Positions 9,465 to 57,329 of a stretch of DNA of 64,000 nt are shown piece by piece. Position 1 is the stretch's first letter, and every line of letters begins with the position of its first letter. Under the pieces are notes generated by a model that saw nothing but the letters and a program-made list of their open reading frames with translations, searched no databases and was not told the origin of the DNA. Made by a program: the position numbers and the translations under genes. Source of the DNA: Bacteroidota bacterium (GTDB lineage: Bacteria; Bacteroidota; Bacteroidia; Chitinophagales; LD1); assembly GCA_947475165.1 (NCBI GenBank), contig CANJLD010000011.1:1-64000 (forward strand). Reading direction: 5' to 3'.

Positions 9465-9682
9465 TAATTTCCGAGGTGGTTAATTAAGTTTCCGAGGCAG
9501 TAAAAGGGACAAACTACCCGAGGGAAGGCATGAACTAGCCATGGGAAGCCGCGTCCGAGCCGTTCGAAGTAACTTCCGAGCCGTGTGAAGGCATTTCCGA
9601 GCCATGGAAACCTGCGTCCTAGCCGTTCAAAGACATTTCCGAGGCGTTCGAAGCCATTTCCTAGGGGTGAAAAATGGCATTT
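9465..9682. repeat. Degenerate 21-bp period tandem array no. 1 (about 10 units)
   Basis: Anchor corresponding to (TT)CCGAG falls at 9471, 9492, 9513(actac), 9534(actag), 9555, 9576, 9597, 9618(cctag), 9639, 9660(cctag), all exactly 21 bp apart. Confidence 0.85.
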
Positions 9683-15361: not shown

Positions 15362-18300
15362 TTACTTAGTCAATACTACTTTCTTAGTATAAACCTCATT
15401 AGCCGAAGAAACAATAGCGGTGTAAGTTCCCGAAGCAAGTTTGTTCAGGTCGAAGGTAATAGTGTTGCCTCCCTTGTTTAACAGGTGGCTGCTTTCCATT
15501 ACTTTTTGCCCTACTACATTGTAGAACGTTACCGTAATATCCTGGTCTTTCGTTGCAGTTACTATCAAACTTGTCTTGTCCATCGTTGGATTCGGAACAA
15601 AGTCTTTTACGCTGAACGTAACGTCTCCATTCAGTTGCGCGCTTACAATGTCGGTGTATTCAAATGCTCCGTCATTGTCTACTTGTTTTAAGCGGTAGTA
15701 GTAAACTATACCTGCCGTAACGTTCATATCGTTGTAGCTGTAATCGTTTTGTGTAGTCGCATTGTCGTGACCATTTACAAATCCAATCTGTGCCCAGGTT
15801 TGCCCATCTACACTGCGCTCAACCTGGAAGCCATCGTTGTTTATTTCGAGTGCTGTTGCCCATGTTAATTGAATAAAGGCGTTGTTAATAGGATTCGCTT
15901 CAAGGAATATCATTTGAACCGGTAGTGGCATCGATTGTCCGCTTCCGTGTAACCAGAATTCCGAAAATTCTGTTACCGACATTTCTACATAGTGGGCAGC
16001 AGTTCCTCCATAAATGGTATTAAATCCTGTGGGAACGCGAGTCAGTGCTGTATTACCCGGCAGTGTTAACGCATCACCAAACAAACGGTAGATACCCCCA
16101 TTTTGTGCCGGCAAGTTGTTCGAATAATCTCCATCCTCTGTAGCCAATTGACCGGTTGGTGCAGTATACTTAGTTACAAATAAATCTGCTATTCCTGTTA
16201 CATCATCCTCGGTTGAACAGCCAACATCCCAGTTGCTTGAACCACCCACACCGTATGTTTCGGTAATCAAATCACTTAACTCTGTTTGAGTAAAGAATAA
16301 GCGAACCTTAGCTTTTGGTGCATAGCCGTTCACCGGTGGTGCATTGCTTGTAGTTACTACAAAGTGACGCTCCATAGGGCGCATTGGAACCTGATAGCAG
16401 CTACCATTGCTCCAACTGCTGTTCAATACAACCGGTTCGTTATCGTTGCGATACATTGACACCGTTACTAAGCCTAAATCGTTGGTAGCTGCATTGATTG
16501 CCAATATCGCATCGTTGTTGCCATCGCGGTAAGTAACCCATTTATTATAACCAAAGTCATAACAATTTTTAGTGGTGGATGCGGTGCCTGGTCCTGTCCA
16601 AGTGCTTAGAGCAAGGTCACTTGGAAGACCGCTAGGAACCGATACATTGAACGAGCCTCCGGCTGTGCAACCTACCAAATCCGTAACCGGATAGGTAACA
16701 GTTGAGCCATCAAGTTGCTCGTATACTTGCGAAGTTGCGCTTACTACTCCTACTAAATCTGTAACAGGGAATGAGTATGGTGGTGTTCCTCCACCCGCAC
16801 CTACCAATACATAGTAGTTAACGGTTGCTGTATTAAAGTCATCGGTTGACATGTTTAAGCAATCATCTGGCACAGCTGTTTGTGTTAAAGCCGGGTCGTA
16901 AATTACCTGCACAGGGTCGCTTGCCGAAGCACATACACCAGTAGATGCTGTCCATTGCAAGATATAAGTACCGGTTGCAGTGGCAGTTGCAGTGGCAGTT
17001 GGTGTATTGCTATTTGCACTAGAGAAAGTTATCGTGCCAGGTCCGCTAGATTGAGTCCATGTTCCCACTCCAGAACTTGGAGCAGTTCCTGATAAGGCTA
17101 CAGATAAACTTCCGCAGGCTAATTTATCAGCACCTCCAGCCGGAGCACCCGGTTGGTTATCTACAGTAATAACTACTGTTTTAGGAGTACAAGCACCGTT
17201 TGTAGCTGTAATAGTTACTGCTTGGTTCGCACTTGGGTTCGACACGTTAGGTGGATTAAAGCTGGTATTAATTCCTGGTGTTGTTACAGAACCAGCATTT
17301 GCAGACCATACCGTTGCCGTTACATCTCCGTTCACAGCAAAGTTGGTAGCAGTTTCGCAGATTGTTGTGGCAGCAGTAGATATGCTGTTATCATTATCCA
17401 CTCTTACCGTCCTTGTTACCGGAGTACAAGTACCATTTGTAGCTGTAATAACTGTGGTAGCATTTTGTGTTGGCAAGCCAAGGTTAACCGGTGTAACTAC
17501 TCCGTTTGTTGCCGGTGTTCCAACAGTAGCTGTAGCAGGTGTTCCGCTTGACCATACTGTTCCGTTTACATCACCTGTAAACATTGTTGTTGCTCCTGCT
17601 GCATCACATAGACCGTAAGTTCCTGCTGCTTCTGCAATGGTATTTTGGTTATCTACCAGAACAGTAATTGATTTAGCTACACAGGCCCCGTTAGTTGCTG
17701 TAACTGTAATGCTCGATTGTGCTGTTGGAGTTGCTACATTACCCGGAGTAAGGGTAGTATTTTGTGTAGGACCAGTAACCGCAGTTCCGGTCAATGATGA
17801 AGTAAATGTCCAAGTCACGGTGCTTACATCACCATTTACAGTAAGTGTTGAACCATCACATACGGCTGTATTATTAGCAGTAGTAATGGTGTTATCGTTA
17901 TAGTTGGTAACAGTTCTTGATACTTCACACACACCGTTAGATGCTGTGATTACTGTAGGTGTGCTTTGAGTAGGGGTAGCTATGTTAGCAGGAGTATATG
18001 TAGAAGTGGCTCCTGCTGAATTTGACATAGAACCTGTTCCTGAGAAAACACTCCATTGTGTAGCAGATACTGAGCTGGTAAACGGCACGGTACTATTATC
18101 GCAAACCGAAGGGTTAGTTGCCGGTGTTAATGTAAATGCTTTGTAAACTGTAACAGTAGCTGCATCACCACAACCTGACGGACCATTAGTAAGGGTTAAC
18201 GTATAGTTTTGTGAAGAACTGGCCGGTGTTGGCGCTGTCCATGAATAGCCCGGAATTGGGTAAGGGCCACCTGTAACTCCTGTTCCACTCATGGTTACCC

Positions 18301-21300
18301 CGTTTACATCAGAGCCAAGCGTTATAATTGAACCCGAACATTGGTTACCAATACCGTTTCCAACTCCTAATGCAACATCGTAAAGTTGTGCCTTATTATA
18401 TACAGTAACGTTAAAGTCTGTAGGGCAAGTAACATTAGTTGCGCGTATTACTACTGCAGAAGTTTGAGTAGGTGTAGCTATATTTCCAGGTGTATATTGA
18501 CCATTAACTGCTCCTATACTTCCTGTTCCCGAAAATACAGACCATGTTACCCCACTAACGCTGGAGTTATACTGCACATTAATATCCTGGTCACAAATAC
18601 TTGATGAGCCGGTAACTACTGTTGTCTGGTTATAATTTACAACTATATCGGCAGCAGTATTACAACCGGCTGAAACATTCGTAATTGTCCAACGGAAAGT
18701 ATAAGAACCGTAAGTAGTAACCGTGGCAGTTGCTCCTGGTGTATTAATAGTCGGGTTCCAGGTAACACTACCCGGACCACTAACAACTGACCATGCTCCT
18801 GTGCCTATTGCGTTAGGTGTATTACCACCCAAGGCAGAAGAAGTTAAAGTATTGCAAGGTGCCGTTTGAGGCGTAGCCCCTACAGTAGCCTGCTCTACAT
18901 AATTTACAGTAATGTCTGCGCTACTTGCCGGGCAAGTTCCGTTGGCAGGGAAAGACCAACGAAGTACATATGTACCATAACCTCCTGTAGCGGTAAAGGT
19001 GGAACTACCGCTATTGGCGTTGCTGAAAGTTCCGGTACCTCCGCTCACTATAGTCCAGGTAGCTGTTCCTGTAGCTATGGCATTGCCGCCTAAAGCCAAA
19101 CTTACCAAGGTACCGCATCTATATTGTGTTGCACCTACTGTAGCTGTGCCCGGGTTTTGATATGAGTTTATAATTACATCATCTGAACTTCCAGCACATG
19201 TTCCGTTAGTCGGGAAGGTCCATCTGAGGGTAATAGCACCGTAAGATGTAGGAGTAAAGGTTGAGGTAGCCAGGTTGGCATTACTGAATGTTCCTGTACC
19301 TCCGCTTACTACCGTCCACGTTGCTGCATTTGGTCCCGCAATAGCATTACCCGCTAAGGTTACTGCTGCTAATGCACAAGTGTTTTGGTCGCCTCCGGCT
19401 GCTGCTGTGCCAGGGTTTTGATATGAGTTTATAATTACATCATCTGAACTTCCTGCACAACTTCCGTTTTGCGGGAAGGTCCATCTGAGTGTAATAGCAC
19501 CGTAAGATGTAGGAGTAAATGTTGAGGTAGCCAGGTTGGCATTACTGAATGTTCCCGTACCTCCGCTTACTACCGTCCACGTTGCTGCATTTGGTCCTGC
19601 AATGGCATTACCCGCTAAGGTTACTGCTGCTAATGCACAAGTGTTTTGGTCGCCTCCGGCTGCTGCTGTGCCAGGGTTTTGATAGGAGTTTATAATTACA
19701 TCATCTGAACTTCCTACACAACTTCCGTTTGTCGGGAAGGTCCATCTGAGTGTAATAGCACCGTAAGATGTAGGTGTAAAGGTTGAGGTAGCTAGGTTGG
19801 CATTACTGAATGTTCCTGTACCTCCGCTTATTACTGTCCATGTTGCTGTGCCTACTGCTATGGCATTACCCGCTAAGGTTACTGCTGCTAATGCACAACT
19901 GTTTTGGTCGCCTCCGGCTGCTGCTGTACCCGGGGCCTGATATGAGTTTATTATTACATCATCCGAACTTCCAGCACATGTTCCGTTTGCAGGGAAGGTC
20001 CATCTGAGGGTAATAGCACCGTAAGATGTAGGTGTAAAGGTTGATGTAGCAAGGTTGGCATTACTGAATGTTCCTGTGCCTCCGCTTACCACCGACCAGG
20101 TGCCTGTGCCTACTGCTATGGCATTACCCGCTAAGGTTACTGCTGCCAATGCACAAGTGTTTTGGTCGCCTCCGGCTGCTGCTGTGCCCGGGCTTTGATA
20201 TGAGTTTATAATTACATCATCTGAACTTCCTGCACAACTTCCGTTAGCCGGGAAGGTCCATCTGAGGGTAATTGCTCCGTAAGATGTAGGTGTAAAGTTT
20301 GTAGTAGGACTGTTAGCATTTGCAAATGTTCCTGTACCCCCACTTACTACCGACCAAGTGCCTGTGCCTGCAGCTATGGCATTGCCGGTCATGGCTACTG
20401 CAGCTAAAGCGCAGGTATTCTTGTCTGCTCCCGCTGCGGCTGTGCCCGGGTTTTGATACACTACTATAGTTGCATTATCATCACCTTTTACCGCCATATT
20501 TGTCATACTTCCGTTAACTGTGTAAATTGACATATCGGGTACATAAACCGTAGAGGTTGGAACTACCGTACTGGTATAGAACGTAGTTCCGTTTTTCATA
20601 TAGTCAATTCTATTGGTTGATGGATTCCAATACACCCGAAACACATCACTTGTAGTATACGCTACGCCAGGGCAAGAAGGACTACCTCCGTTTTCATAAA
20701 TACACGATGTTCCGAAATTGAGATACATGGCGTAGTCAATACTATTGTAGTTGTAATCGGGGTCGCTGGCATCAAGTCCAAACATCATATAAGCGCTGGT
20801 GGTTCCTGCTCTGGCTTCTATATAACCTCCCGGACCAATACGGGCTGTTCCGCCCGAGCCACCATCCCAACCATCTCCAACACCATTACCGGCTACCTTT
20901 TGAATAGTACCGAGTGCGGTAGAAGTAACGTTTGAGTTCATATTCACGAACCCGAGCGTAGCGGCTGTCCCAGTGTTAACTGCCGAGAAACAACCACTGC
21001 CATCTACCACGCTTCTGCGGTAATAATTAGTACCTACAGTATTAGGCGGAGTATAAGCAGCCAGGTTAGTTGTTCCCGAAGCTGTACCAAAAGTTGAGTT
21101 ATCTGTTGACGACTGCCAGGTATAAGTATAAGCGCTGTTTCCGCCTTGTGCTACACCTAAACTTGTAAGGGCAGCGGGGCTCGATGTATTACAAAGGGTT
21201 TGGTCGGCCGATGTAGCTCCTGCACCAATAGGTGGTGTAACGGTAACCGTAATGGCATTGCTTGTCCAACCGGCTCCGCAACCCGCGCCTCCGGTAATAT

Positions 21301-22261
21301 AAGCCTGATAAGTTCGTGTAGAATAGATAGCCCCCGGACTATATGAGGTTGCGGTAGTACCGCTATATACGTAACCCCCTGTACTTGGTGCACTGGTACC
21401 CGGTTTCCAATACCAATCAATGGTATTAGAGCCGTTACCACCGCTTGGAGCCGCGGTTAAAGTACCGGCTGCTGCACCGGGACAAATAGTTCCTGCCCCG
21501 CCTGTAATACTACCGGCTGACCAAGCTGGATAAACTGTTTTAGTTATATAAGCAGTGCTCCACCCTGCAAAACAACCAGAGTTACCTGTTGGGTAAAAAT
21601 AGCAGTTCCATGACCTGGTTACTGAAGTAGGAGTAACAACAGCTCCGTTATTTCCTACAATAGTACCAGCATAAATATACCCGCCTGCACTAGGGTTAGC
21701 TGTACCATCCACATAATACCAATCAAAAGTAAAAGCAGATACGTTTCCGTTAAACCCGGTTGCATAGATAGCTGACTGAGTAGCACCGGAACAAACAGTT
21801 TCCGCGCCTGACATAGCGTTTGGTACCGTAAAGTTAGTTCTAACGGAGAGAACTGCAGAAGTAGCACCAGCCTGCCACCCAGGGCAGGCGCTGTTATTTT
21901 GCACCACCACAAAGTTTCCATTCGCGTTGCTCGACCGCGAGGTCCAAGCCACTGCGGTATTACCATTGGTTTGTGCAGTCCAACCCGGCTGGTCATCATA
22001 AACAGTTAAATGTTTGGCAATATTGGTAGAAGCATAATACGGCCAACCGTTCACCCCATTAAAGTGCTGATACGCTCCGTTACCCATACCACTTCTGGTA
22101 AATTCTGTGTTATTACAGGGTATAGTTTGCGGTGTTGCACCGGGGTGATAGACCCATCCACAATTCTGCGCGTTTACCTGATTTGAAAACACCATCAGCA
22201 ACATAAGAACCGTTGCCGTTAAAAATGTTTTGGCAGATGTTGAGGTAAAAAATTTATTCAT
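15362..22261 (-). CDS. Giant (2299 aa) repetitive secreted surface protein with T9SS sorting domain
   Basis: Signal peptide; multiple ~86-aa NPGTAAAGGDQNTCALAAVTLAGNAIA...DDVIINSYQ repeats; several VITATNGTCTPVTRTV.. repeats; C-terminal DFVPNPTMDKTSLIV...KKVVLTK. Confidence 0.9.
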   Translation of the reverse strand: MNKFFTSTSAKTFLTATVLMLLMVFSNQVNAQNCGWVYHPGATPQTIPCNNTEFTRSGMGNGAYQHFNGVNGWPYYASTNIAKHLTVYDDQPGWTAQTNGNTAVAWTSRSSNANGNFVVVQNNSACPGWQAGATSAVLSVRTNFTVPNAMSGAETVCSGATQSAIYATGFNGNVSAFTFDWYYVDGTANPSAGGYIYAGTIVGNNGAVVTPTSVTRSWNCYFYPTGNSGCFAGWSTAYITKTVYPAWSAGSITGGAGTICPGAAAGTLTAAPSGGNGSNTIDWYWKPGTSAPSTGGYVYSGTTATSYSPGAIYSTRTYQAYITGGAGCGAGWTSNAITVTVTPPIGAGATSADQTLCNTSSPAALTSLGVAQGGNSAYTYTWQSSTDNSTFGTASGTTNLAAYTPPNTVGTNYYRRSVVDGSGCFSAVNTGTAATLGFVNMNSNVTSTALGTIQKVAGNGVGDGWDGGSGGTARIGPGGYIEARAGTTSAYMMFGLDASDPDYNYNSIDYAMYLNFGTSCIYENGGSPSCPGVAYTTSDVFRVYWNPSTNRIDYMKNGTTFYTSTVVPTSTVYVPDMSIYTVNGSMTNMAVKGDDNATIVVYQNPGTAAAGADKNTCALAAVAMTGNAIAAGTGTWSVVSGGTGTFANANSPTTNFTPTSYGAITLRWTFPANGSCAGSSDDVIINSYQSPGTAAAGGDQNTCALAAVTLAGNAIAVGTGTWSVVSGGTGTFSNANLATSTFTPTSYGAITLRWTFPANGTCAGSSDDVIINSYQAPGTAAAGGDQNSCALAAVTLAGNAIAVGTATWTVISGGTGTFSNANLATSTFTPTSYGAITLRWTFPTNGSCVGSSDDVIINSYQNPGTAAAGGDQNTCALAAVTLAGNAIAGPNAATWTVVSGGTGTFSNANLATSTFTPTSYGAITLRWTFPQNGSCAGSSDDVIINSYQNPGTAAAGGDQNTCALAAVTLAGNAIAGPNAATWTVVSGGTGTFSNANLATSTFTPTSYGAITLRWTFPTNGTCAGSSDDVIINSYQNPGTATVGATQYRCGTLVSLALGGNAIATGTATWTIVSGGTGTFSNANSGSSTFTATGGYGTYVLRWSFPANGTCPASSADITVNYVEQATVGATPQTAPCNTLTSSALGGNTPNAIGTGAWSVVSGPGSVTWNPTINTPGATATVTTYGSYTFRWTITNVSAGCNTAADIVVNYNQTTVVTGSSSICDQDINVQYNSSVSGVTWSVFSGTGSIGAVNGQYTPGNIATPTQTSAVVIRATNVTCPTDFNVTVYNKAQLYDVALGVGNGIGNQCSGSIITLGSDVNGVTMSGTGVTGGPYPIPGYSWTAPTPASSSQNYTLTLTNGPSGCGDAATVTVYKAFTLTPATNPSVCDNSTVPFTSSVSATQWSVFSGTGSMSNSAGATSTYTPANIATPTQSTPTVITASNGVCEVSRTVTNYNDNTITTANNTAVCDGSTLTVNGDVSTVTWTFTSSLTGTAVTGPTQNTTLTPGNVATPTAQSSITVTATNGACVAKSITVLVDNQNTIAEAAGTYGLCDAAGATTMFTGDVNGTVWSSGTPATATVGTPATNGVVTPVNLGLPTQNATTVITATNGTCTPVTRTVRVDNDNSISTAATTICETATNFAVNGDVTATVWSANAGSVTTPGINTSFNPPNVSNPSANQAVTITATNGACTPKTVVITVDNQPGAPAGGADKLACGSLSVALSGTAPSSGVGTWTQSSGPGTITFSSANSNTPTATATATATGTYILQWTASTGVCASASDPVQVIYDPALTQTAVPDDCLNMSTDDFNTATVNYYVLVGAGGGTPPYSFPVTDLVGVVSATSQVYEQLDGSTVTYPVTDLVGCTAGGSFNVSVPSGLPSDLALSTWTGPGTASTTKNCYDFGYNKWVTYRDGNNDAILAINAATNDLGLVTVSMYRNDNEPVVLNSSWSNGSCYQVPMRPMERHFVVTTSNAPPVNGYAPKAKVRLFFTQTELSDLITETYGVGGSSNWDVGCSTEDDVTGIADLFVTKYTAPTGQLATEDGDYSNNLPAQNGGIYRLFGDALTLPGNTALTRVPTGFNTIYGGTAAHYVEMSVTEFSEFWLHGSGQSMPLPVQMIFLEANPINNAFIQLTWATALEINNDGFQVERSVDGQTWAQIGFVNGHDNATTQNDYSYNDMNVTAGIVYYYRLKQVDNDGAFEYTDIVSAQLNGDVTFSVKDFVPNPTMDKTSLIVTATKDQDITVTFYNVVGQKVMESSHLLNKGGNTITFDLNKLASGTYTAIVSSANEVYTKKVVLTK
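19164..20457 (-). repeat. In-gene tandem repeat, 258/261-bp units (about 5 highly similar copies)
   Basis: gagtttata landmark at 19164, 19425, 19686, 19944, 20202 (spacings 261, 261, 258, 258). Confidence 0.85.
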
Positions 22262-23784: not shown

Positions 23785-24360
23785 ATGGTTTTGTGTGCTA
23801 TAAATTTGCGCCATTATTTAACCCGCCTTAACCCTGCTAATGCAGAAAAGGCATTAAAACAAAAGTCTATGGGTAATCTTTTAAGCAACCGTGTTTCGCA
23901 GGTAATTTCGCCTGCTGACCAAACTGCCACTATCGGGCATTTAACTGCGATAGAAACACTTTTTCCATGGCTGGTAGGTTTAAATACTACTGAGCGCAAA
24001 ACCATACCGAAGATTGATTCGGTGAACCGCGATTTTGTGGCGGACGCCCAGAACATTATTGCGAATAATCCAGATTTTTTTCCTGCGTATTTCAACGCGG
24101 CTGAACTGGATAAGGATTTTGAATTGTATAACGTGCTGGATGAAATTATTCCGGTGGCAGAGAGAGTGCTTGAAAAACTGAAAGACACGCAAATGCTGGC
24201 AGGCAGCGAGGCGTATATTTCGGCACTAACGGCTTACCGGTTGCTGCAAAGCGCAGCCGGTGACGGTGTACCGGGAACTGATGTTTTGTATGACCGCTTA
24301 AAGGCGCGTTTCGAAAATCAGGGCGGTCCGGGAGCGCCTGAACCTCCGGTAACGCCTTAG
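23785..24360 (+). CDS. Uncharacterised helical protein adjacent to array 2
   Basis: Probable start at 23869 (MGNLLSNRVSQVIS...); ...LVGLNTTERKTIPKIDSVNRDFVADAQNIIANNPDFFPAYFNAAELDKDFELYNVLDEIIPVAERVLEKLKDTQMLAGSEAYISALTAYRLLQSAAGDGVPGTDVLYDRLKARF. Confidence 0.7.
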   Translation: MVLCAINLRHYLTRLNPANAEKALKQKSMGNLLSNRVSQVISPADQTATIGHLTAIETLFPWLVGLNTTERKTIPKIDSVNRDFVADAQNIIANNPDFFPAYFNAAELDKDFELYNVLDEIIPVAERVLEKLKDTQMLAGSEAYISALTAYRLLQSAAGDGVPGTDVLYDRLKARFENQGGPGAPEPPVTP

Positions 24361-24369
24361 CAAAAAGGC

Positions 24370-24650
24370 AAGCCGGTTCAGGTTTTACACGAGCCCGTTC
24401 ACCAAAAAGGTGGGCGGGCTCGCTTTTTAGGTGAACCCGGTTAGGATTTTAGATGAGCGGGCTTACCTCCGGCCTAAGCCCGTTTACCTTTTTGGTTAGC
24501 CCGTTAACAATTGAGGTGAGCGCACTCACCTTTCAGGTAAACCGGGTTTGGGTTTTAGGTAAACGCGTTTGCTTTTTAGGTGAACCGGCCTACCTTTTTG
24601 GTGAGCCAGTTCACCTCAGAGGTGGGGGGCCCCCACCCTATGGGGTGGGG
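24370..24650. repeat. ~21-bp period array of sequence-diverse palindromes, array no. 2 (about 13 units)
   Basis: Dyad centres read by hand at about 24374.5, 24395.5, 24416.5, 24438, 24459.5, 24480.5, 24501.5, 24522.5, 24544, 24565.5, 24586.5, 24607.5, 24629; e.g. AGGTGAGcgcaCTCACCT, GTTAgcccgtTAAC, AAACCgGGTTT, AAACGCGTTT, GGTGAgccagtTCACC, GGTGGGGGgCCCCCACC. Confidence 0.85.
24389..24427 (+). terminator. Rho-independent terminator of the 23785-24360 gene, embedded in the first units of array 2
   Basis: CGAGCCCG-tt-CACC-aaaaa-GGTG-gg-CGGGCTCG followed by CTTTTT. Confidence 0.75.
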
Positions 24651-24708
24651 TAAATGCTCATTTTAACAGAAAAATGAGGGTTTTAAGGGGTTTTAAGAAT
24701 TTAGCGGA

Positions 24709-25938
24709 CTATTGTGGTTTAGTTACCGGTACCCCCATTGCCGGAATTTCTTTTTGCAGTTTGGCTTCTACCCAGTCCCAAACCTCCCAGCCTTTTTTGC
24801 CAAAGTGGTGAAAGATATGAATAAAGGCTGGGGTGTATTGTGTATCAAAGGCATCATCGGTAATAAATTCGCGGTCTTCGCTTATTATCAGTCGGGGGTT
24901 ACTGAAGTCTGCAATAAAGTTAAACTGCTTGCTTATAACCGGTGCGTTTTGCAAGCCAAATTGCCAGGCGGTGGCTATCAGGGTTCCCTGGTCGCGGGTT
25001 TTCCAATGGGGGTCGTTAAAAATTTCGAGGGTTTTTAAATGCCAGGCTTGCATAAAGGGGTGGCTGCTATCGTCAAACAAAAACACCCCGCCATTCCAGT
25101 GTTGCCATTTTTCGCCTTTTACCTGAATGTTGAATTTTTGGGCAATGGCTTCTTTTAAATGGTTGCAATCGAGCTGGTGCACATCGTTACCGGTGGGGCT
25201 TATCCATCTGCGTTTTACAAAGTTCCAGCGCCAGTTGGTGTTTTGTTCAATTTGCTTAATGGTGTTTTCGGAAAGGTCGAACAGAATGGGGTTGTGCATG
25301 GTATCGTACCAAATGCGTTTCGTTTTATCGAAATAGGTGTTTTCATCGAGCCGCAAAATTTTGCCGCTGAGCAAATACTGCGAAGCAAATTTTGCATACC
25401 GTAACCGGTTGCGCTTTATCAGTTCAAATTTTTTCTTCAGTTCGCGCTGTTTCTTTAATAAATGCGGATTAGTTACCTGCTCGCTATTATCAAACCGGTT
25501 GAGCATTTCTTCGAGGGTGTTCCACTCTGCCTGGTTTTTTTCGAGGCAACCGCAGTTAACCGCGTAGGGGCTAAACTGGTGCATTTGGCAATGGTCAACG
25601 GCAAAAGTGATAATGCCGGTTTTGTGTTTAAAAATATCGTTCACCCGGTTGTTGAGTGCTACTACATCGGTATCTAAATAGCAGTACAGGTTGCCGGCTG
25701 GTAAAATATTATGCAAACCGGTTTTAAGATAAATACTGGCCTGGTGGTAGTCGAAATTTTCGGGTGTGCGCACATCAATAATATTTTCGTGCTGCACCGG
25801 TATTTCATTTCTAGTGGTATCGGTAACTACCAAAATTTGGTGGGTAGAAAAATGGCGAAGCGCGCGCAACGAATAGTGCAGTGTTTCTACATGCTCTTTG
25901 CCACCGCATACCACAAAAACAAATTTGCTCTTTTCCAT
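24709..25938 (-). CDS. Putative glycosyltransferase (DxD-type)
   Basis: AGNLYCYLDTDVVALNNRVNDIF (DTD), HWNGGVFLFDDSSHPFMQAWH, DQGTLIATAW, reminiscent of nucleotide-sugar transferases. Confidence 0.7.
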   Translation of the reverse strand: MEKSKFVFVVCGGKEHVETLHYSLRALRHFSTHQILVVTDTTRNEIPVQHENIIDVRTPENFDYHQASIYLKTGLHNILPAGNLYCYLDTDVVALNNRVNDIFKHKTGIITFAVDHCQMHQFSPYAVNCGCLEKNQAEWNTLEEMLNRFDNSEQVTNPHLLKKQRELKKKFELIKRNRLRYAKFASQYLLSGKILRLDENTYFDKTKRIWYDTMHNPILFDLSENTIKQIEQNTNWRWNFVKRRWISPTGNDVHQLDCNHLKEAIAQKFNIQVKGEKWQHWNGGVFLFDDSSHPFMQAWHLKTLEIFNDPHWKTRDQGTLIATAWQFGLQNAPVISKQFNFIADFSNPRLIISEDREFITDDAFDTQYTPAFIHIFHHFGKKGWEVWDWVEAKLQKEIPAMGVPVTKPQ

Positions 25939-55574: not shown

Positions 55575-55838
55575 TCAGCTATTCAACTCCCTGTCACACA
55601 CCTCATCCCAAATTTCGCCCAGCGCCATTTCCATCAGCACCCAGGGTTTAACTTCCTGGTGTATACATATCCTCAAATAAGTTGTCATCTCGCAATTGGC
55701 GGCAGAGGTCTCAATTAAACTGTAACGGTTTTGGGTAAGCCCTGCTTTGAGGGCAAAATCGCGTTGAATGGGATAGAGCTTTTCGCGCAGCGGCCGGAAT
55801 AAGTCAAACAGCCTGCGGATTGCGTTTGAGAGGGTCAT
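55575..55838 (-). CDS. Small hypothetical protein, weakly HTH(XRE)-like, adjacent to array 3
   Basis: MTLSNAIRRLFDLFRPLREKLYPIQRDFALKAGLTQNRYSLIETSAANCEMTTYLRICIHQEVKPWVLMEMALGEI; start at 55838 preferred over 55931. Confidence 0.5.
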   Translation of the reverse strand: MTLSNAIRRLFDLFRPLREKLYPIQRDFALKAGLTQNRYSLIETSAANCEMTTYLRICIHQEVKPWVLMEMALGEIWDEVCDRELNS

Positions 55839-55941
55839 GGTGTAGTTTTTATTGATGAAAAATAAAACTTTTTTGCTTTTAACAATAATCCATTTTAAGG
55901 TGGACAAAGTAGTTTTTACCCTCCCTACCATTGCTAATCGT

Positions 55942-56335
55942 TTTTTGAAAAAGGAAACAGGGCTAACGACATCGTTAGGTGCATTCCCGAAATCGTGAAC
56001 AGGGCTAACGACCTAAGGAGGCGCATTTCCGAAAAAGGAAACAGGCCTCCTAAAGTTAGGAGATGCATTTCCGAAAAAGGAAACAGAGCTAACGACATCG
56101 TCAGGCGCATTTCCGAAAAAGGAAACAGGGCTAACGACATCGTCAGGCGCATTTCCGAAAAAGGAAACAGGGCTAACGACATCGTCAGACGCATTTCCGA
56201 AAAAGGAAACAGGGCTAACGACATCGTCAGACGCATTTCCGAAAAAGGAAACAGGGCTAACGACATCGTCAGGCGCATTTCCGAAAAAGGAAACAGGGCT
56301 AACGACATCGTCAGGCGCATTTCCGAAAAAGTATG
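55942..56335. repeat. 21-bp phased palindrome array no. 3; alternating A/B palindromes giving a 42-bp higher-order unit (about 19 palindrome positions)
   Basis: A = TTTCCgaaaaaGGAAA centres at 56033.5, 56075.5, 56117.5 ... 56327.5; B = ACGAcaTCGT centre 55970.5 and every 42 bp in the homogenised part; variants TTCcCGAaaTCGtGAA (55991.5) and CTCCTAaagtTAGGAG (56054.5). Confidence 0.92.
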
Positions 56336-56366: not shown

Positions 56367-57329
56367 ATGATTGAATTAATGAAGTATTTCCGCATTCTGT
56401 TTTTAAGCTCTAAAATCAGCCGCGAGCGGCTGAAAGACTTCACCGAAAGCCATATTCTTAACCTTACGGCACACAACCCCGGTGGTATTTTTACCGCCAT
56501 ACTTACCGCTGTTACCACCGCCTACAACAATTACTATGGCGACCTAAGCAGCGAAGCCGTAAACCTGGCGGTGCAGGAAGGCAAAACCATAGCCATGAAC
56601 GAAAGCCGCGTGGCGCTCGAAAAACAATTGAGCGATAACGAAAAGCTGGTGGCCTATACCTACCGCAACGATAAAAACACCTACGAAGAATTCTATCCGC
56701 TTGGTATTACTGAATACAATCAAGCCGACCTGGGCACCTTCGACACTATTACCGAGCGTTATAAGACGGTGCTCGCCAGCCATGCCGGTGATTTTACTGC
56801 CGGCTTTGTAACCGATTACAACACCGCCCGCGCCACTTTTAAAACCAACCGCGATGCGCAGGTAACCGCCATAGGCAATGTAACCAACGAGCGCAGCGAT
56901 ATGAACACCACCCGCCCCGCGCTGGCGCAACAGTTAACCACCAACCTGCTTACCATTGCCCTGCAATACCTGGGCGATGAAAGCAAAAGCGATGTATATT
57001 TTAACCAGGCCATACTAAATGCCGCCTTTAACGAAAGCCAAACCAAGGTAGAAACCACCATAGACCCCGGGCAAACCATGAATGTATTCGATAATATTAC
57101 CAAGCCCGAAGTGCAACTGATGGTAGAAAACACAGGCACAGAAGTGCTTTACCTGCACTTTATGGCAACCGACACCACACCGGTACCGGTGGGTGAAGAT
57201 ACCGCCATACAACCCGGTGAAGTGCGCGGTGCCAACGCAGGCGAAGCCGGCTGGACCAACGCTACCAGATATTTAAACATTACCAACCCCAGCGGAGGCA
57301 TAGGCAGTTTTAGTGTAGAGAAAGTATAA
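56367..57329 (+). CDS. Uncharacterised protein directly downstream of array 3
   Basis: MIELMKYFRILFLSSKISRERLKDFTESHILNLTAHNPGGIFTAILTAVTTAYNNYYGDL...; helical N-terminal part and beta-like C-terminal part; ATG at 56367 chosen over the ORF running through the repeats. Confidence 0.75.
   Translation: MIELMKYFRILFLSSKISRERLKDFTESHILNLTAHNPGGIFTAILTAVTTAYNNYYGDLSSEAVNLAVQEGKTIAMNESRVALEKQLSDNEKLVAYTYRNDKNTYEEFYPLGITEYNQADLGTFDTITERYKTVLASHAGDFTAGFVTDYNTARATFKTNRDAQVTAIGNVTNERSDMNTTRPALAQQLTTNLLTIALQYLGDESKSDVYFNQAILNAAFNESQTKVETTIDPGQTMNVFDNITKPEVQLMVENTGTEVLYLHFMATDTTPVPVGEDTAIQPGEVRGANAGEAGWTNATRYLNITNPSGGIGSFSVEKV

Follow-up and report, generated by a model that had tools for sequence, protein, structure and literature searches.

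Organization of the locus

The window, that is, the whole 64-kb stretch of DNA that was analyzed, carries three arrays of short tandem units, and the one considered here lies between the gene for an orphan protein, P0001, and a convergent 409-aa open reading frame (Table 1). Alignment of P0001 with its relatives suggested a start at 23869, which would give a protein of 163 aa in place of the listed length. Of the 18 genomes in the genus, 15 carry relatives of the 409-aa open reading frame, for which Pfam gave no assignment above the cut-off. A separate array, at 55947, lies between a small XRE-like open reading frame and a second orphan gene. The window also encodes a long surface-type protein with internal repeats.

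Table 1 Features of the window, with positions counted from its first nucleotide
Feature	Position	Strand	Description
Third array	9537..9661	.	21/63-bp tandem repeat; little dyad symmetry; neither HTH nor P0001 neighbor
Surface-type protein	15362-22261	-	2299 aa; five 258-bp (86-aa) repeats at 19143-20458
P0001	23785..24360	+	Gene for an orphan all-alpha protein (listed length 191 aa); stop codon abuts the 24361-24645 array
Phased array	24361..24645	.	About 12-13 imperfect palindromes, consensus AGGTRARCCSGYTYACCT, T-rich or A-rich spacers
Last unit and adjoining inverted repeat	24618..24654	.	GGTGGGG..CCCCACC; distal array end
409-aa ORF	24709..25938	-	Convergent, flanks the array opposite P0001; not in the conserved cassette
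Small XRE-like ORF	55575..55931	-	Recognized by eye, no Pfam match; 5′ end abuts the 55947 array
Second phased array	55947..56331	.	18 centers, chain score 40.6; each 42-bp unit holds two unlike dyads at 21-bp spacing
320-aa orphan ORF	56367..57329	+	Faces away from the XRE-like ORF, with the 55947 array between them

Geometry of the 24361-24645 array

An earlier note on this DNA had described about 13 palindromes with symmetry centers locked at 21 or 21.5 bp, and this geometry was confirmed. Twelve dyad centers were located, at 24395.5, 24416.5, 24438, 24459.5, 24480.5, 24501.5, 24522.5, 24544, 24565.5, 24586.5, 24607.5, and 24629, each step between neighboring centers being 21 or 21.5 bp, and one extra weak center was present at 24374.5. 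With a chain-of-dyads score, in which palindrome log-odds are chained at a fixed spacing, the array reached 36.6, compared to 13.0-15.2 for four dinucleotide shuffles of the whole window and 18.1 for another shuffle run. Scanning the period from 16 to 31.5 gave 36.4 at 21 and 21.5 only; the neighboring period of 22 scored 16.1, and the best value beyond that was 18.5 at 31.5. When the 21 columns were permuted, a control that preserves periodicity but not the dyad, the observed score of 38.3 was never reached (mean 6.1).

The units are diverged copies of one degenerate consensus separated by T-rich or A-rich spacer, and to TRF a portion of the array was an ordinary 21-bp tandem repeat, so that the description of the arms as not being copies of each other was not confirmed as worded. 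The companion claim, that both arms of a unit change together, fared better by one control than by the other. Pairing between the arms was found in 70 cells, compared to 62.1 ± 3.6 when the 3′ letters were shuffled, a value matched by 2.5% of shuffles, whereas the proportion of cases in which a change on one side was accompanied by a change in its partner was 0.565 in the true register and 0.435-0.593 in slid registers. When 25 arrays were pooled, the covariation excess was clear by letter shuffle and small by the slid-register control (0.533 vs 0.46-0.48), with these pooled figures inflated by the picking of the register for pairing and the tandem units non-independent in both tests. Arm covariation inside the 24361-24645 array is suggestive only.

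The P0001 family and its downstream arrays

P0001 matched no family in Pfam, NCBIfam, or PADLOC, and its AlphaFold2 model, which is all-alpha (pLDDT 87), gave no fold match in the PDB and no match to a DNA-binding fold or family. Membership in a known family or fold was rejected on these results, and a phage origin was rejected because IMG/VR contigs contained no P0001 relative. A scan of the genome collection recovered 79 relatives, mainly from Flavobacteriia, Chitinophagia, and Bacteroidia, a set biased to close relatives by the tighter alignment (A2) used in the scan. Relatives were also present in records labeled Planctomycetaceae, Akkermansia, Leptolyngbya, and Bdellovibrio (L183-L187, L163), labels that may reflect binning errors.

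Phased dyads are concentrated downstream of these genes. Of the 74 regions of 900 bp examined downstream, 23 had a dyad chain score of at least 18, compared to 2 of 492 other windows from the same loci and none of 74 shuffles, an enrichment with an odds ratio of 110 (p = 4e-20). The 51 loci under this threshold include some with a plain 21/22-bp repeat, and downstream autocorrelation at P0001 loci peaked only at lags of 21, 22, 42, and 44 and slightly at 43. The P0001 paralogue in the source genome also precedes an array, one of different sequence. At the contig ends L040:1-139 and L045:1-115 (G080), 21-bp tandem repeats were seen upstream, not downstream, of P0001-family genes.

An intrinsic terminator was predicted between the stop codon of the P0001-family gene and the array at 26 of 43 loci, compared to 4 in shuffles, and the Bacteroidota -7 element TAnnTTTG was found 3′ of the array at 14 loci, a count made without a shuffle control. 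The window locus has no terminator between P0001 and the array. Mismatches within dyads were G-T in 69 cases and A-C in 82 (p = 0.33), giving no wobble excess. Taken together, the terminators of the family and the equal mismatch classes indicate a DNA element lying outside the P0001 transcript.

A gene identical to P0001 (100%) was observed on a contig of a same-genus MAG (L031 / L109, G001:C226) that ends inside the gene, before the array. The best relative of the 409-aa protein in that genome is only 68% identical, suggesting either a mis-binned contig or recent transfer.

A small HTH regulator adjoins many arrays

Besides P0001, the commonest partner of the arrays is HTH-CC, an XRE-type helix-turn-helix protein of ~120 aa that matches HTH_3 weakly and ends in a coiled coil. 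Its AF2 model comprises an XRE-type domain and a 43-residue C-terminal helix, and the Foldseek neighbors of this model include SinR, C.Esp1396I, C.AhdI, and HipB (probability 0.99-1.00, best E 0.007). The gene order P0001, array, HTH-CC was found at 25 of the 79 P0001 loci and again in genomes of the same order as the source (L216, L226, L240); with the terminators described above, the cassette in many genomes reads P0001, terminator, array, HTH-CC. Nearly all arrays at HTH-CC genes of the source order are without P0001.

The position of the arrays relative to HTH-CC is consistent. The source genome encodes nine HTH-CC paralogues, and the strongest upstream lag was 21 or 42 for all nine, with TRF reporting a 21-bp array upstream of eight. 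In a 30-locus set from the source genome and its relatives, the best upstream lag was 21 or 42 at 23 loci (p = 7e-27 for a chance of 2/51). None of the six plain, more distantly related XRE genes that the set included (L217-L221, L227) had a best upstream lag of 21 or 42. For Flavobacteriaceae HTH-CC loci, a best lag of 21, 22, or 42-44 was found upstream in 24 of 25 cases, compared to downstream in 6 of 25. At these loci (23/30 and 24/25), the arrays span roughly -340 to -50 bp relative to the HTH-CC start codon; that of the Flavobacterium locus L152 is close to perfect. HTH-CC loci as a class encode an XRE-fold regulator next to the sites, with the sites at the promoter of that regulator.

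The 24361-24645 array has no adjacent HTH-CC gene, and no excess of its 6-mers was found in the arrays of the HTH group that accompanies P0001 in sister genomes.

Array sequence follows the recognition helix

Array k-mer similarity was compared across 21 dereplicated Flavobacteriaceae loci. With P0001 identity held constant, array similarity correlated with the HTH recognition helix (partial r = 0.47, Mantel p = 0.001), while with the recognition helix held constant it did not correlate with P0001 (r = -0.03), the correlation being partly confounded by descent. Within the source genus, the arrays of one HTH group share 34.5 same-strand 7-mers, compared to 8.4 between groups (p = 7e-13) and to 5.6 on the opposite strand within a group, a pattern to which common descent likewise contributes.

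By their same-strand bias, many HTH-linked arrays have a direction. In the source genome, several of the arrays linked to an HTH gene are direct repeats whose dyad symmetry does not exceed the column-permuted control, so one dimer per palindrome cannot explain everything. The constant feature is the 21/22-bp phase, with dyad symmetry typical of P0001-linked arrays and optional elsewhere. The earlier note had suggested a scaffold for a dimeric, sequence-relaxed DNA-binding protein; a phased scaffold for dimers is the part of that suggestion that we favor, and "sequence-relaxed" is probably wrong because the array sequence tracks the recognition helix and is common to orthologues of one HTH group.

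Arrays elsewhere in the genome

In 464 kb of the source genome, non-coding tandem repeats with a period above 9 bp were nearly all of period 21, 42, or 63, with a few exceptions at 14, 25, 32, and 41. A stricter threshold applied to lags of 13-33 returned 11 stretches at lag 21, one each at 18 and 27, and no others. These densities rest on that 464 kb and on smaller samples of other genomes. In another clade the period is 22. Within the genus, no lag-21 stretch was found in 337 kb from genomes without HTH-CC, compared to 13 in 664 kb from HTH-CC-rich genomes (p = 0.005), a comparison of small samples in which 11 of the 13 stretches come from the source genome.

The arrays occur among convergent, divergent, and co-directional genes alike, and a role as transcription terminators was rejected on this ground. 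Their sequences mostly differ between loci of the source genome, and some families recur: the 55947 array shares sequence with two orphan loci, and the 24361-24645 array does so with a dispersed orphan array (C2:183222). Many arrays of the source genome have neither HTH-CC nor P0001 adjacent.

Short tandem repeats of 7 bp, and also of 14 and 28 bp, were frequent (L069, L071, L074, L089, L090, L094, L097); 7 divides 21. One four-part locus, composed of a MAIPxLNPY protein, a 21/42-bp array, a 215-aa orphan protein, and an XRE HTH, is duplicated at L069:9218-11697 and L098:8022-10384, with flanks 83-93% identical.

A phased operator row as the preferred explanation

The 24361-24645 array is one of a family of 21/22-bp arrays that adjoin an HTH regulator and a small orphan protein in many Bacteroidota. 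Across these bacteria, the arrays are most likely long rows of docking sites for such a regulator, and we consider that the 24361-24645 array is probably a phased operator row for the small dimeric HTH-CC protein. Each 21- or 22-bp unit would be the site of a single HTH-CC dimer. Since a unit spans two helical turns, all dimers would be aligned along one side of the DNA, where 10-16 of them could join in one cooperative nucleoprotein patch of ~250 bp beside the HTH-CC promoter. We infer that the protein dimerizes, binds the units, forms this patch cooperatively, and regulates its own gene. At the window locus, loss of the HTH-CC gene may have left a paralogue to act in trans, or the array may now be an orphan; P0001 would typically be the cassette's passenger or effector gene.

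If this explanation is right, a widespread arrangement has gone unannotated, in which a small regulator is joined by a long row of its sites in helical phase and by an orphan protein family. The many HTH-array pairs of differing specificity, often several per genome, would then provide a data set on the co-evolution of helix and operator, and a good part of the minisatellites of the source genome would be explained. A bolder form of the idea, which we regard as unlikely, is that the arrays belong to a new class of nucleoprotein element in which phased arrays with their own code, matching HTH-CC readers, and the P0001 cassette make up orthogonal chromosome-organizing or silencing systems within one genome, with orphan arrays of matching code serving as extra docking sites through which each HTH-CC protein gathers distant loci.

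It is unlikely that the arrays are neutral or selfish minisatellites that, like BrickBuilt of Porphyromonas gingivalis, grow and shrink by slippage and spread as short repeats, the unit and its dyads being products of mutation (for instance by hairpin-templated slippage) and not of selection. Such an origin would accommodate the concerted similarity of the tandem units, the tandem repeats of 7 and 14 bp also present in the genome, the recurrence of families at several loci, and the many arrays that lack an HTH neighbor. It is harder to reconcile with a period confined to 21 bp in one genome and to 22 bp in a second clade, with a fixed array position (immediately 5′ of the genes of one regulator family and 3′ of those of one orphan family in distant bacteria), or with arrays that share no leader, tail, or terminal inverted repeats, and the same-genus genomes without HTH-CC are also without arrays in the samples.

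A centromere-like or chromosome-organizing function, with HTH-CC or P0001 coating and bridging local and dispersed arrays, appears improbable. Rows of 10-18 contiguous sites and the coiled-coil tail of the HTH protein are what such a function might call for, orphan arrays share sequence both with the HTH-linked 55947 array and with the P0001 array, and the parS of pSM19035 requires at least four contiguous sites (heptads) for ParA activation (PMC9499535). However, no ParA-like or TubZ-like partner was recognized among the array neighbors inspected, nine HTH-CC paralogues per genome with different arrays and a patchy distribution argue against it, and for arrays at the HTH-CC promoter autoregulation is the simpler fit.

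That P0001 itself binds the array, with HTH-CC incidental, is quite improbable: P0001 is the constant neighbor at loci without HTH, including L183-L185 (labeled Planctomycetaceae) and L186 (Akkermansia), but array sequence fails to track it once the HTH is held constant, it is missing from nearly all HTH-CC arrays of the source order, and it has no recognized DNA-binding fold. Transcription of the array as a string of RNA hairpins, in a 3′ UTR or a separate RNA (the earlier note had proposed hairpins in RNA or single-stranded DNA), is highly improbable despite the palindromic units and an array that begins at the P0001 stop codon, and was rejected on the terminators, the mismatch symmetry, and a search of Rfam in which no family matched the arrays at the gathering score and a single L20_leader match fell far below it.

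Comparison with known systems

A search of the open-access literature found no paper describing such 21/22-bp arrays. Like REP/BIME elements and CRISPR, the arrays are repeated extragenic palindromes or regular arrays. Unlike REP/BIME, which is one conserved, dispersed palindrome family, their consensus differs at most loci, and unlike CRISPR, with identical repeats, unique spacers, and cas genes, their repeats are contiguous, without variable spacers; no cas-like open reading frame was recognized by eye in the window. The 24361-24645 array is, in agreement with the earlier note, neither a REP/BIME or CRISPR element nor a simple VNTR.

Another repeat family of a Bacteroidota genome, BrickBuilt of Porphyromonas gingivalis, is a minisatellite-MITE composed of intergenic 23-nt tandem arrays at many loci, without spacers (PMC4596501). 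The present arrays are likewise intergenic, spacer-free, and found at many loci of one genome, but BrickBuilt is a single sequence family with leader and tail, whereas here there are many families, of 21/22 bp, tied to HTH-CC genes. In the 40-bp flanks of the arrays, exact inverted matches did not exceed 9 bp and no sequence was common, the exceptions being one duplicated locus and a few neighbors that were paralogous or similar in part. Membership in BrickBuilt or another MITE group was rejected, given that no terminal inverted repeat, leader, or tail was found.

In the omega2/parS and TubR/tubC systems, arrays of sites on plasmids are coated and bridged. A contiguous array of short sites beside a small DNA-binding protein is common to the present loci and to omega2 / ParB-pSM parS of pSM19035. 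The plasmid system has 7-bp sites, an RHH fold, and a ParA partner, whereas the present arrays have units of 21/22 bp, an HTH_3-like protein, no ParA seen, and a chromosomal location.

Tandem palindromic sites at the regulator's own promoter are found for lambda OR, C.Esp1396I, SinR, and HipB. Because no HTH-CC gene adjoins it, the 24361-24645 array is classed as working like such tandem XRE operators, not as a proven member. HTH-CC loci resemble the tandem XRE/Cro-C1 operators in having a regulator of the same fold class with tandem sites at its promoter, and they differ from the known examples, which have few sites, in their 10-18 contiguous sites with strict 21 or 22 bp phasing, the coiled-coil tail of the regulator, the many arrays per genome, and the orphan partner protein.
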